Positions 13,951 through 20,389 of a stretch of DNA of 20,389 bases are shown here, in pieces. Numbering within the stretch: the stretch's first letter is position 1; the number at the start of each line of letters is the position of its first letter. This DNA comes from a virus. The DNA is taken from the IMG/VR virus record IMGVR_UViG_3300028384_000576, positions 1-20,389 of that record; one strand, given 5' to 3'. Below the pieces are notes generated by a model. It was not told the DNA's origin, ran no database searches, and was given only the letters and a program-made list of their open reading frames with translations. A program made the position numbers and the translations under genes.

Positions 13951-14778
13951 ATGTCAAATGGTATTCACATCGTTAAACGTAACGGCAGCAAAGAACCGAT
14001 CAATATTGATAAGATACACAAAGTAGTCGAACATGCTTGTGAAGGCTTAGCCGGAGTTAGTAGTTCACAAATTGAAATGAATGCAAACTTACAGTTTTAC
14101 GATGGAATGAGTACAGCAGAAATACAAGAGATTATGGTGCGTTCGGCCAACGATCTTATATCTTTAGAATCTCCTAATTATCAATATGCTGCTTCAAGAC
14201 TTTTAACTTACGGACTATATAAAGAAGTGTTCGGCGAGTTTAACGCAAAGACATTTTTAGAAATTATTAAAGAAAATATTGAACGTAAAGTTTATGATCC
14301 TGCAATTCTTGATTTTTATACTGAAGAAGAAATTAATAGAATGGATAGTTATATTCATCATAAGCGTGACGAAAACTTTACCTATGCAGGCATGCGTCAA
14401 GTAGTCGACAAATATCTAGTACAGGATCGTAGTTCAGGAGAGATCTTTGAAACCCCTCAGTTTATGTATATGATGATCGCGGCAACACTATTTCATAACT
14501 ATCCAAAAGAAACACGTATGCACTATGTAAGGAGATACTACGATGCGACCTCACTTTTTAAAGTCAACATTCCGACCCCAGTCATGGCAGGAGTGCGAAC
14601 ACCTATCAGACAGTTTGCCTCGTGTGTCCTCGTTGATTCAGATGACACGCTTGATTCCATTTTTGCCAGTGATATGTCTATTGGACGTTACACAGCGCAG
14701 AGAGCTGGCATCGGCATTAACGCAGGGCGCATCAGAGGAGTTAATTCATCACTTCCCGTTTTGGCATCAAGAGATTGA
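13951..14778 (+). CDS. nrdA: Ribonucleotide reductase class Ia alpha subunit, N-terminal fragment
   Basis: The large subunit of the aerobic enzyme that makes dNDPs from NDPs. RBS TTAGGAGAG precedes the ATG. Residues 1-90 are the ATP-cone-like allosteric domain. Cys225 lies in RQFASCVLVDS, at the same number as the E. coli active-site Cys225, and the frame stays family-like to GIGINAGRIRGVNS (residue 266, base 14748). Nine junk codons then lead to a stop at 14776-14778. Homology resumes in another frame at 14750, so about 37-41 residues are missing, including the effector and substrate specificity loops of the family. The fragment cannot be active by itself. From about 14541 to 14750 the codons are GC-richer than in the rest of the gene. 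Confidence 0.88.
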   Translation: MSNGIHIVKRNGSKEPINIDKIHKVVEHACEGLAGVSSSQIEMNANLQFYDGMSTAEIQEIMVRSANDLISLESPNYQYAASRLLTYGLYKEVFGEFNAKTFLEIIKENIERKVYDPAILDFYTEEEINRMDSYIHHKRDENFTYAGMRQVVDKYLVQDRSSGEIFETPQFMYMMIAATLFHNYPKETRMHYVRRYYDATSLFKVNIPTPVMAGVRTPIRQFASCVLVDSDDTLDSIFASDMSIGRYTAQRAGIGINAGRIRGVNSSLPVLASRD

Positions 14779-16153
14779 AGACATTCTTGTGCTAAAGAAC
14801 AACAAAGGCACAGAAGACAATCGTGTACGTAAACTAGACTACAGCATTCAGTTGAATAAAACAATGTATGAAAGGTTATTATCTGGCGGAGATATTACTC
14901 TTTTCTCGCCACATGACGTTCCAGGATTATACGAAGCATATTTTGGTGATTCTACTAAGTTTCAAGAGCTATACGAAAAGTACGAACGTGCTACAAGTAT
15001 TAAGAAGAAATCTATTCCTGCAATGGAATTGTTCTCTGCTCTAATTAAAGAACGTGCCGAAACAGGACGTATCTACATTATGAATGTAGACCACGCTAAC
15101 ACACACAGTAGTTTTAAAGATACTGTATATATGAGTAACTTATGTCAAGAGATTACACTACCTACCAAACCACTAAACCACATTGATGACGAAGAAGGTG
15201 AAATTGCACTATGTATTCTAAGTGCTATTAACGTAGGTGTAATCAAAGAACTAGACGACTTAGAAGAACTATGCGATTTAGCAGTACGTGCTCTAGAAGA
15301 AATTATTGATTACCAGCGTTATCCAATTTTAGCCGCTGAGAAATCTACTAAAGCAAGACGTTCATTAGGTGTAGGATATATTGGATTAGCGCATTTCTTA
15401 GCAAGACAAAAGGTACAATACAACGATCCGCAAGCCTGGAAACTTGTACACGACCTAACAGAAGCATTTCAGTACTACTTGCTAAAAGCCAGCAACAAAT
15501 TAGCGCAGGAGCGTGGTGCTTGTGAGTATTTTGACCGTACTAAATACAGCGACGGCATTCTGCCAATTGATACATACAAGAAGGATGTAGACACAATCGT
15601 TCCACACAGTTTAAATTATGATTGGGAATCTTTACGACACGATATCAAAGAGCACGGCCTCAGGCACTCAACTCTGTCCGCACAGATGCCATCGGAGAGC
15701 AGTTCCGTTGTGTCGAACGCAACAAACGGGATTGAGCCACCTAGAGGATTCTTGTCCGTTAAAAAATCAAAGAAAGGGCCTCTCAAGCAGATTGTTCCGC
15801 AGTATCAAACACTCAAAAATCATTACACGCTTTTATGGGATATGCCATCAAATGAAGGCTACATTAATGTGGTGGCAATAATGCAGAAGTTTTTTGATCA
15901 AGCTATTAGCGGCAATTGGAGTTATAACCCTACGCACTTTGAAAATAACGAAGTACCTATGAGCGTAATGATACAAGATCTACTAAACACTTATAAGTAT
16001 GGATGGAAGACTTCTTACTACCAAAACACTTACGATTATAAAACAGATCCTAGTGAGATTGAAGAAGAAAAGGTAACACAACCGTTAGATGCAGGAGTTC
16101 CTACTAATGGTATAAATGAAGACGACGAGCTTTGCGAAGCGTGTGCGATTTAG
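14750..16153 (+). CDS. nrdA: Ribonucleotide reductase class Ia alpha subunit, C-terminal fragment
   Basis: The rest of NrdA, starting in a different frame at HFPFWHQEIEDILVLKNN; the first in-frame ATG within the homologous part is 14864. Seen: NKGTEDNRVRK, LFSPHDVPGLY, thiyl-radical site SNLCQE (equivalent of E. coli Cys439 with Asn437 and Glu441), ALCILSAINVG (Cys462 equivalent), the MPSESSSVVSNATNGIEPPRG phosphate/catalytic loop, YYQNTYD with the radical-transfer Tyr pair, and a C-terminal CEAC redox pair. All catalytic residues survive; only the core segment at the junction is lost. A second GC-richer patch covers about 15650-15860, exactly over the SNATNGIEPPRG loop. Confidence 0.85.
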   Translation, partial: HFPFWHQEIEDILVLKNNKGTEDNRVRKLDYSIQLNKTMYERLLSGGDITLFSPHDVPGLYEAYFGDSTKFQELYEKYERATSIKKKSIPAMELFSALIKERAETGRIYIMNVDHANTHSSFKDTVYMSNLCQEITLPTKPLNHIDDEEGEIALCILSAINVGVIKELDDLEELCDLAVRALEEIIDYQRYPILAAEKSTKARRSLGVGYIGLAHFLARQKVQYNDPQAWKLVHDLTEAFQYYLLKASNKLAQERGACEYFDRTKYSDGILPIDTYKKDVDTIVPHSLNYDWESLRHDIKEHGLRHSTLSAQMPSESSSVVSNATNGIEPPRGFLSVKKSKKGPLKQIVPQYQTLKNHYTLLWDMPSNEGYINVVAIMQKFFDQAISGNWSYNPTHFENNEVPMSVMIQDLLNTYKYGWKTSYYQNTYDYKTDPSEIEEEKVTQPLDAGVPTNGINEDDELCEACAI

Positions 16154-16208: not shown

Positions 16209-16922
16209 ATGGCTAAGACAGTATTCAATAAGGAAAAAGTAGACTTCACCAAACAGAACATGTTTTTTGGTGCAGATCAAAACACACAGAGATATGACAC
16301 ATTTAAGTTTCCTGTCTTTGATAAACTAAATCAAACTATGCTGGGCTACTTCTGGCGTCCAGAAGAAGTATCGTTACAAAAAGATAGAGCAGATTATGCA
16401 AACTTCCGTCCAGAACAGAAGCACATCTTTACTGCTAACCTAAAGTATCAAACATTGTTGGATAGTGTACAAGGACGTGGTCCGTGCCTAGCATTCCTGC
16501 CGCACGTATCACTACCGGAACTAGAAGGTTGTATTGTTACTTGGGACTTCTTTGAAACAATTCACAGTCGTTCGTATACACATATTATGAAAAACGTGTA
16601 TCCAGATCCAAGTGAAGTATTCGATACTATCTTAGACGATGAGAAAATTATTGCTCGAGCACAAAGTGTCACGAAATATTACGACGAGTTTAACGAAGCC
16701 GCAGATGCATTTATGCACCGCAAAGAAGGTTCAATGCGTGACGTAAAGAAGAAACTGTATCTTGCAATGCAAACAGTAAATATCCTTGAAGGTTTACGTT
16801 TCTATGTGAGCTTTGCTTGCACCTTTGGCTTTGGCGAACTAAAGCTAATGGAAGGCTCGGCAAAGATTATTTCACTTATTGCTCGTGACGAAGTGTGTAG
16901 AAGAAGAAAAAGATTGGGCTAA
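16209..16922 (+). CDS. nrdB: Ribonucleotide reductase class Ia beta subunit, N-terminal fragment
   Basis: The small, diiron subunit that generates the tyrosyl radical. Seen: Asp85 in YQTLLDSVQGR, Glu116 and His119 in FFETIHSRSY, radical Tyr123, FGFGELKLMEG with the next Glu ligand, and SLIARDE with the following Glu. The frame is family-like to residue 228 (base 16892), then runs into ten junk codons and a stop. The missing stretch should carry the last iron ligand His (E. coli His241, three residues after the RDE Glu). Homology resumes at 16894 in another frame with about 45-50 residues absent. The protein should not form a normal diiron site. Confidence 0.88.
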   Translation: MAKTVFNKEKVDFTKQNMFFGADQNTQRYDTFKFPVFDKLNQTMLGYFWRPEEVSLQKDRADYANFRPEQKHIFTANLKYQTLLDSVQGRGPCLAFLPHVSLPELEGCIVTWDFFETIHSRSYTHIMKNVYPDPSEVFDTILDDEKIIARAQSVTKYYDEFNEAADAFMHRKEGSMRDVKKKLYLAMQTVNILEGLRFYVSFACTFGFGELKLMEGSAKIISLIARDEVCRRRKRLG

Positions 16923-17193
16923 CTATCTATTTAAAGACGGTTCAATGATTGGTTTGAATGCAACACTATTGCATCAATATGTAGAGTACATTGCTAACCG
17001 TCGACTAAAGGCTCTGGGCATGAATGCAATTTTTGATGCACCAGTTAATACTAACCCGCTACCATGGACACAGCATTGGTTATCTAGTTCAGGATTGCAA
17101 GTTGCTCCACAAGAAACTGAAGTTGAAAGTTATATCATTGGTGGCATCAAACAAGACGTTGATAAAGACAGTCTAAAAGGATTTTCGTTATGA
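16894..17193 (+). CDS. nrdB: Ribonucleotide reductase class Ia beta subunit, C-terminal fragment
   Basis: Continues NrdB in a shifted frame: VEEEKDWANYLFKDGSMIGLN, then QYVEYIANRRL, PLPWTQHWL and the C-terminal tail VAPQETEVESYI...LKGFSL that binds the alpha subunit in this family. The first ATG within the homologous part is at about 16945, so independent translation would give only a tail peptide. The stop overlaps the start of the glutaredoxin gene (ATGA at 17190). Confidence 0.85.
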   Translation, partial: CVEEEKDWANYLFKDGSMIGLNATLLHQYVEYIANRRLKALGMNAIFDAPVNTNPLPWTQHWLSSSGLQVAPQETEVESYIIGGIKQDVDKDSLKGFSL

Positions 17194-19417: not shown

Positions 19418-19968
19418 AAAAAGAATTAAAAGATTATGTAAAAGTTTATAATCACTTTGATAAAGACTTTTGTGATACCGTCGTTGATAATTTAAAAGAC
19501 GACTGGCAAAAACATACATTTTATTCTCACGCCGATAAAGAACGTTTTGACTTTAATGACGACTTAGAAATTAGTCATCAGTTTGATGATAAAAGTAATT
19601 TTATATGTCAGCAAATAAAGGATGTTTTAATCAAATACATTGAAGATATAAACATTCCTAGTCTAACTGGCTGGGACGGATACCTTGATATTAGGTATAA
19701 CAGATACCAACCAGGAACAACAATGCACTGGCATGCTGACAGAGTGCAAGAAATGTTTGACGGTCAGCGCAAAGGTATTCCAACTCTAAGCGTAGTTGGG
19801 CTTTTAAATGATGACTTTGAAGGCGGCGACTTTTATATGTTTGATGACTATAAAGTAGAACTAACTATAGGAGATGTTTTAATATTTCCAAGTACTTTTA
19901 TGTATATACATCAAGTAACACCTGTAACTAAAGGAACACGTTACAGTTGGGTAAGTTGGGTTTGGTAA
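19414..19968 (+). CDS. 2-oxoglutarate/Fe(II)-dependent oxygenase (prolyl-4-hydroxylase-like)
   Basis: A 184-aa oxygenase: iron ligands H107-x-D109 in MHWHADR and His166 in MYIHQVTP, and the 2-oxoglutarate-binding Arg176 in KGTRYSW, preceded by the DIRYNRYQPG strand. These are the P4H-type jelly-roll signatures. The substrate (peptide prolines, nucleic acid or other) is unknown. Such genes are common in marine T4-like phages. ATGA overlap with the membrane peptide gene and TAATG overlap with the next gene. Confidence 0.92.
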   Translation: MKKELKDYVKVYNHFDKDFCDTVVDNLKDDWQKHTFYSHADKERFDFNDDLEISHQFDDKSNFICQQIKDVLIKYIEDINIPSLTGWDGYLDIRYNRYQPGTTMHWHADRVQEMFDGQRKGIPTLSVVGLLNDDFEGGDFYMFDDYKVELTIGDVLIFPSTFMYIHQVTPVTKGTRYSWVSWVW

Positions 19969-20273
19969 TGAATGTTAAAGAAGGCGATCTAGCATATATT
20001 GTTTTTAGTATACGTCCAGAAAATGTAGGACGTATTGTTAAAGTAGCAGAGTATATTGGAAGATTTCAAAAAGGTGAACAGTTTGAGTTTCGTAATGTTC
20101 CTTGTCAAGCGTTAGTAACAGATCACCATTGGTGGATTGAAGCAGATGATTTAGAAATAGGATTCGGACCAAGTCCGAGAGCTTACATTGCAGATAGTTG
20201 GCTACGCCCTATACAATCACCAAAAGAAGAAAAAGAACAAGCAGAACAATTAGAACTTGACATCTTTGGTTAA
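19968..20273 (+). CDS. Hypothetical beta-rich protein
   Basis: A 101-aa protein starting at ATG 19968 (MNVKEGDLAYIVFSIRPENVG); the frame extends to 19947, but that overlaps the oxygenase C-terminus. The N-terminal 60 residues look like a small SH3/KOW-type barrel (VKEGDLAYI ... NVGRIVKVAEYIG). The middle has HHWWIEADDLEI, and the C-terminus is a Glu/Lys-rich helix. No function known. Confidence 0.72.
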   Translation: MNVKEGDLAYIVFSIRPENVGRIVKVAEYIGRFQKGEQFEFRNVPCQALVTDHHWWIEADDLEIGFGPSPRAYIADSWLRPIQSPKEEKEQAEQLELDIFG

Positions 20274-20279
20274 AGGTGT

Positions 20280-20287
20280 TATAAATA
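20280..20287 (+). promoter_or_regulatory. Late promoter TATAAATA (tmRNA-like RNA)
   Basis: An exact T4 late consensus. The expected start, about 6 nt after it, falls at the TGTTAGC that begins the inverted repeat of the RNA element. Confidence 0.6.
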
Positions 20288-20290
20288 CTT

Positions 20291-20389
20291 TGTTAGCGTT
20301 GAAGCAACGTGGACACATACTGGACCCGGGTGCGATTCCCGGCATCTCCACCATAAGCACATCACGGGTGCGAGAACAACTGCTAACAT
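20291..20389 (+). ncRNA. tmRNA acceptor piece, probably circularly permuted (partial)
   Basis: 20322-20353 reads like a tmRNA 3' end: GGAC, then T-stem CCGGG, loop TGCGATT, CCCGG, acceptor strand CATCTCC, A and CCA (20351-20353). GGAC before the T-stem and CTCCACCA at the end match the E. coli ssrA 3' end. No GGAGATG partner strand or anticodon arm precedes it, and the gene ending at 20273 leaves only 80 nt, so neither a tRNA nor a one-piece tmRNA fits. In permuted two-piece tmRNAs (alphaproteobacteria, some cyanobacteria) the acceptor piece comes first and the coding piece follows, which here would lie beyond the window. An inverted repeat encloses it: TGTTAGC-GTTG (20291-20301) with CAAC-T-GCTAACA (20377-20388). 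Confidence 0.6.

Follow-up and report, generated by a model that had tools for sequence, protein, structure and literature searches.

The stretch of DNA analysed here, which we call the window, is an entire virus record of 20,389 bases. The genes upstream of the locus of interest are phage genes, belonging among others to the NrdA, NrdB, thioredoxin and exonuclease families, and the best matches to the NrdB protein, among those listed, come from pelagiphages and cyanophages. Both NrdA (13951-16153) and NrdB (16209-17193) are read as two overlapping frames each, which suggests a frameshift or an internal deletion, arising from either assembly error or real damage. The locus itself lies at the right-hand end of the window, with all of its features on the plus strand. 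It begins with a small phage gene of the phrog_2529 family (19968-20273), which served as a synteny anchor and has homologues in 80 viral loci. A T4-type late promoter, TATAAATA (20280-20287), follows 6 nt past the stop codon of this neighbour gene, and then comes a tmRNA acceptor piece (20291-20353), whose 5' end is approximate and falls near the predicted transcription start.

Within the acceptor piece, the hexamer GTTAGC (20292-20297) would form one strand of a helix between the two pieces of the RNA, and is followed by GTTGAAGC. Next come GGAC (20322-20325) and the T-arm CCGGG-TGCGATT-CCCGG (20326-20342), which has a perfect 5-bp stem with compensatory changes in relatives, and the loop TGCGATT. 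The 3' strand of the acceptor stem, CATCTCC (20343-20349), has a T at position 70 and leads into the terminal ACCA (20350-20353). Beyond this point only the first 36 nt of an intervening segment (IVS; 20354-20389) are present before the contig ends. The IVS opens with TAAGCACATCA (20354-20364), the left arm of a conserved IVS-closing stem, the right arm of which would lie past the contig end. A first-pass annotation of this DNA had remarked that the 5' partner strand was absent upstream, and we concur: the acceptor piece, with its GGAC, T-arm and CCA, is not preceded by a tmRNA 5' half anywhere in the window.

ARAGORN missed this fragment and called no tRNA, and Rfam missed it at the gathering threshold. 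When the last 190 nt of the window were searched with Rfam, the permuted tmRNA family RF04321 (tmRNA_permuted) matched with 34 bits (E=1e-5) over model positions 1-87 of 213 and was flagged as 3'-cut; RF00023 matched with E=4.9e-10. A clade model, R1, built from 37 viral acceptor pieces with the window excluded, found a single match in the whole window, at the acceptor piece (72.2 bits, E=8.6e-17). Acceptors of the window type are present in 64 viral stretches. As far as it is present, the feature is a regular, though truncated, member of the phage two-piece tmRNAs. Very probably a T4-like marine phage carries here a circularly permuted, two-piece tmRNA gene of which the window retains the 5' third, the remainder having been lost where the contig stops.

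Complete genes of this kind are found in relatives that share the neighbour gene. Many of the 80 viral contigs that encode a relative of this gene run on into a complete permuted tmRNA, in the order TATAAATA, acceptor piece, IVS hairpin, a coding piece beginning with GGGG, a TCGAC D-arm and a tag such as ANENFALAA*; a minority have a different next gene, or a tmRNA at greater distance. At the syntenic place, full-length RF04321 scores lie between 95 and 122 bits (L047 121.8, L038 115.7, L061 112.1, L093 110.2; also L048), and the tags of relatives include ANENFALAA, ANESYALAA, ANDNFALAA and ANANYSLAA. The coding piece, D-arm and tag frame of these same-neighbour relatives sustain the earlier proposal that the phage encodes the acceptor of a permuted tmRNA and places it behind a T4-type late promoter. 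The tag of L093 is common to Pelagibacteraceae genomes, and the SAR11-type tag ANESYALAA in one relative may point to the host, as only a hint. The relative L419 (RF04321 score 113 bits) shares 44 identical nucleotides with the window, made up of CTCCACCA and the 36 nt of IVS that follow it. Its acceptor piece is 62% identical to that of the window (32/52), and its neighbour protein is identical at 60 of 101 positions. In L419 the sequence continues through a 104-nt IVS closed by TAAGCACATCA/TGGTGTGTTTA into GGGGGTG, a D-arm and the tag ANENFALAA*.

Among named phages, blastn of the full gene returned no full-length relative. Rhodobacter phage RcSimone-Hastad (L418), an isolate phage, carries an unannotated permuted tmRNA at about 1500-1850, with a long IVS and the tag ANDNVRMDAQALAA. 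Two viral contigs (L026, L029) combine a GOLLD RNA with a permuted tmRNA, and several tRNA genes are present in both. A tmRNA T-loop of the form GGCGGTA or GGCAGTA, which lacks T54 and T55, occurs widely among Alphaproteobacteria and the phages that infect them. We considered whether GGCGGTA, the loop of most relatives, was a phage novelty, and rejected this idea, as it is present in at least 118 bacterial genome stretches.

The relatives also indicate what the missing strand of the acceptor stem should look like. Of the alanine identity pair, T70 is seen in the window, and the position of G3 lies beyond the contig end. G3:U70 occurs in 201 of 201 distinct viral genes and in 104 of 104 bacterial genes, in a collection whose search pattern admitted coding pieces only if they began with GG and the acceptor stem was almost complete. 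Two relatives, L059 and L093, have the same CATCTCC 3' strand as the window and pair it with GGGGATG. Since all 201 viral genes keep G3:U70, the missing strand in this phage should be GGGGATG, and we replace with it the GGAGATG that had been predicted from the window alone.

Where the contigs of this clade end is informative as well. We located 49 contig ends in the 3 kb or so that follow the neighbour gene, and 27 of them fall no more than 400 nt from its stop codon or just ahead of it. Because contig ends pile up at the tmRNA gene in this way, the truncation in the window looks like an assembly effect, and we infer that stretches common to co-occurring phages break the assembly at this gene. 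Since assemblies break here, half tmRNAs at contig ends are not to be taken as split or acceptor-only genes. Four apparent acceptor-only genes, in which the acceptor is followed by an open frame (L067, L102, L108, L114), were rejected as such, for in each the coding piece follows a longer IVS. In one contig, L049 (3324-4080), a second tmRNA acceptor piece lies about 690 nt from the first; this second piece is window-like and is located at the contig end.

Could the locus instead be a decayed or acceptor-only remnant, lacking a functional coding piece? No coding piece can be seen in the window, ssrA fragments are known in prophages (PMC9004378), and the first acceptor of L049 is followed by GGGGCTG with no recognisable TCGAC D-arm, so degenerate copies may occur. 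Yet the acceptor in the window is intact in every feature tested and has its promoter in register, its IVS starts identically to that of a complete gene (L419), complete, tag-bearing genes follow the same neighbour in relatives, and contig ends cluster at the tmRNA gene. We therefore consider a remnant unlikely. Misassembly of a host bacterial tmRNA onto a phage contig is more improbable still. The tendency of clade contigs to break at the tmRNA gene does make shared stretches likely, but TATAAATA is found upstream of none of the 104 bacterial genes, many independent contigs have an acceptor behind their phrog_2529 gene, and the window-type acceptor recurs across the 64 viral stretches mentioned above. 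That the feature is the 3' half of an ordinary tRNA, or some other tRNA-like element, seems hardly credible: a T-arm and CCA are common to all tRNAs, but the GGAC ahead of the T-stem, the T at position 70, the rank of the tmRNA families as the best Rfam matches of their clan, the failure of ARAGORN to call a tRNA and the complete tmRNAs of the relatives all argue against it.

The first-pass annotation had proposed that an 11-bp inverted repeat (20291-20301/20377-20388) could guide processing. The repeat is present in the window and arose in none of 1000 shuffles; it is conserved in none of 107 relatives, and both of its arms have other partners, so we rejected it as a processing element. The left arm contains the helix strand GTTAGC, which would pair with GTTAAC of the coding piece, and this inter-piece helix co-varies in relatives (GTTAGC/GTTAAC 19 times, GTAAAC/GTTTAC 17 times and GTTGAT/GTCAAC twice). 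The window strand agrees with the helix of the clade, and its expected partner, GTTAAC, would lie in the missing coding piece beyond the contig end. The right arm, CTAAC, has its partner inside the IVS: in the fold predicted for that of L419, it pairs with a GTTAG three bases downstream. A different pairing is widely conserved: among 171 viral IVSs, 134 are closed by a full 9-bp terminal stem (9/9), and a single shuffle of the 171 gave only one such stem. This IVS-closing stem, which would bring both cut sites together, could guide processing.

In T4 late promoters, the register of the octamer sets the transcript start, which here would fall close to the 5' end of the acceptor. In this AT-rich window, TATAAATA occurs twice against 2.2 expected, with no excess over chance, and it is significant because its position is conserved in relatives, not because of its count. 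An exact copy lies upstream of the tmRNA gene in 121 of 203 viral cases but in 0 of 104 bacterial ones, and each of four control octamers was found at no more than one of the 203 viral genes. Counted from the first base of the octamer, the distance to the CCA end is mostly 74-77 nt in relatives; in the window it is 74 nt, the mode. Thus the octamer stands in a fixed register to the transcript, and the late promoter proposed before the acceptor is upheld by the conservation of this register.

Phage two-piece tmRNAs are already known from Melnitz and Mosig, and have been reported to be commoner in marine and aquatic phages (PMC9004378). Methylophilales phage Melnitz is likewise a marine T4-like phage with a permuted ssrA of alphaproteobacterial type; its gene is reported to carry a glutamine riboswitch as well as an early promoter and to sit immediately before the gene for a transcription coactivator, and early use of the tmRNA was proposed (PMC9004378). 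In the window, by contrast, a T4 late promoter separates the phrog_2529 gene from the acceptor piece, which it immediately precedes. A glutamine riboswitch also lies beside the tmRNA in some of the loci collected here (L006, L009, L011, L013, L022). Pelagibacter phage Mosig EXVC030M (MT647606), which infects SAR11, has an annotated SsrA in permuted order as well, but no TATAAATA directly upstream of it, and its neighbours are the late promoter accessory gene and thyX. The order of acceptor, IVS and coding piece is that of RF04321 tmRNA_permuted and RF01849 alpha_tmRNA (PMC11915505). What is new here is the late-promoter placement, the exchange of IVSs between different tmRNA flanks, and the protein genes in the IVSs of relatives.

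Sequence comparison establishes the gene order, promoter register, identity element, tag and inter-piece helix, and from these a course of events can be proposed. Phage late transcription would start at about 20291-20293 and yield one precursor, from which host enzymes would excise the IVS, with RNase P cutting at the GGGG end and 3' processing acting at the CCA. The acceptor stem and the GTTAGC/GTTAAC helix would hold both pieces together, and AlaRS would charge the G3:U70 acceptor. In late infection, the two-piece RNA would then work with host SmpB to release ribosomes that have stalled on broken mRNAs and to tag the products of these ribosomes for proteolysis. The conserved late promoter just before the acceptor suggests that, in this clade, ribosomes are rescued while virions are being made, and a late role in rescue or tagging is plausible. 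The main benefit would most likely be that ribosomes caught on broken mRNAs are recycled late in infection; by analogy with the proposal for Melnitz, selective tagging of host proteins may be an alternative role.

The IVS stands apart from the rest of the gene in two respects, its size and its mobility between flanks. Its median length is 78 nt in viruses (maximum 493), whereas it is 28 nt (maximum 139) in the 104 bacterial genes, which were collected with one T-loop pattern. Among 80 gene pairs with IVSs at least 80% identical, 29 have an IVS identity at least 10 points above that of both flanks, a few of these pairs involving genes cut at contig ends. For example, Mosig and L038, the latter a relative that shares the neighbour gene of the window, have IVSs that are 87% identical and acceptors that are only 65% identical. 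Judged by the start of its IVS, which is identical in L419 behind an acceptor only 62% identical, the window itself participates in this exchange.

Many of the longer IVSs contain open frames. Counting frames with a ribosome site and at least 30 codons that end inside the IVS, we found them in 23 of 64 distinct viral IVSs of at least 100 nt, against a mean of 0.87 in shuffles. In 12 homologous pairs of such frames, differences summed from the table fall 51/30/118 at codon positions 1/2/3, and wherever both values could be computed, dN is smaller than dS. Three of ten IVS frames have Pfam matches, to HNH endonuclease (L010), PGDYG (L379) and DUF6356 (L413); nested protein genes with a ribosome site also occur in L067, L102, L108, L384, L014, L017 and others. 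A limited literature search found no report of protein genes inside tmRNA IVSs. Together with the exchange of IVSs, these nested genes make the removable segment of the permuted tmRNA a candidate cargo site, a role for which the same limited search turned up no earlier description. We somewhat favour the view that, in the tmRNA precursor of these phages, the IVS is an exchangeable cargo slot that moves between different flanks and in many cases holds a small protein gene with its ribosome site right after the CCA, such that one late transcript would give rise to both a two-piece tmRNA and the mRNA of a small protein. More speculatively, where an IVS frame runs into the coding piece, the RNase P cut would leave a stop-less mini-mRNA that would itself be a tmRNA substrate. 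The window's own IVS looks to be of the structured, non-coding kind.

In the tmRNA database paper, a tRNA gene is mentioned inside one IVS and a repetitive element inside another (PMC11915505). A tRNA inside the IVS as a general rule was rejected, as an intact T-arm is present in 2 of 187 viral IVSs. In L356 and L377, and also in L049 and L060, an intact or near-intact tRNA T-arm lies beside the closing stem, as if these IVSs were derived from tRNAs.
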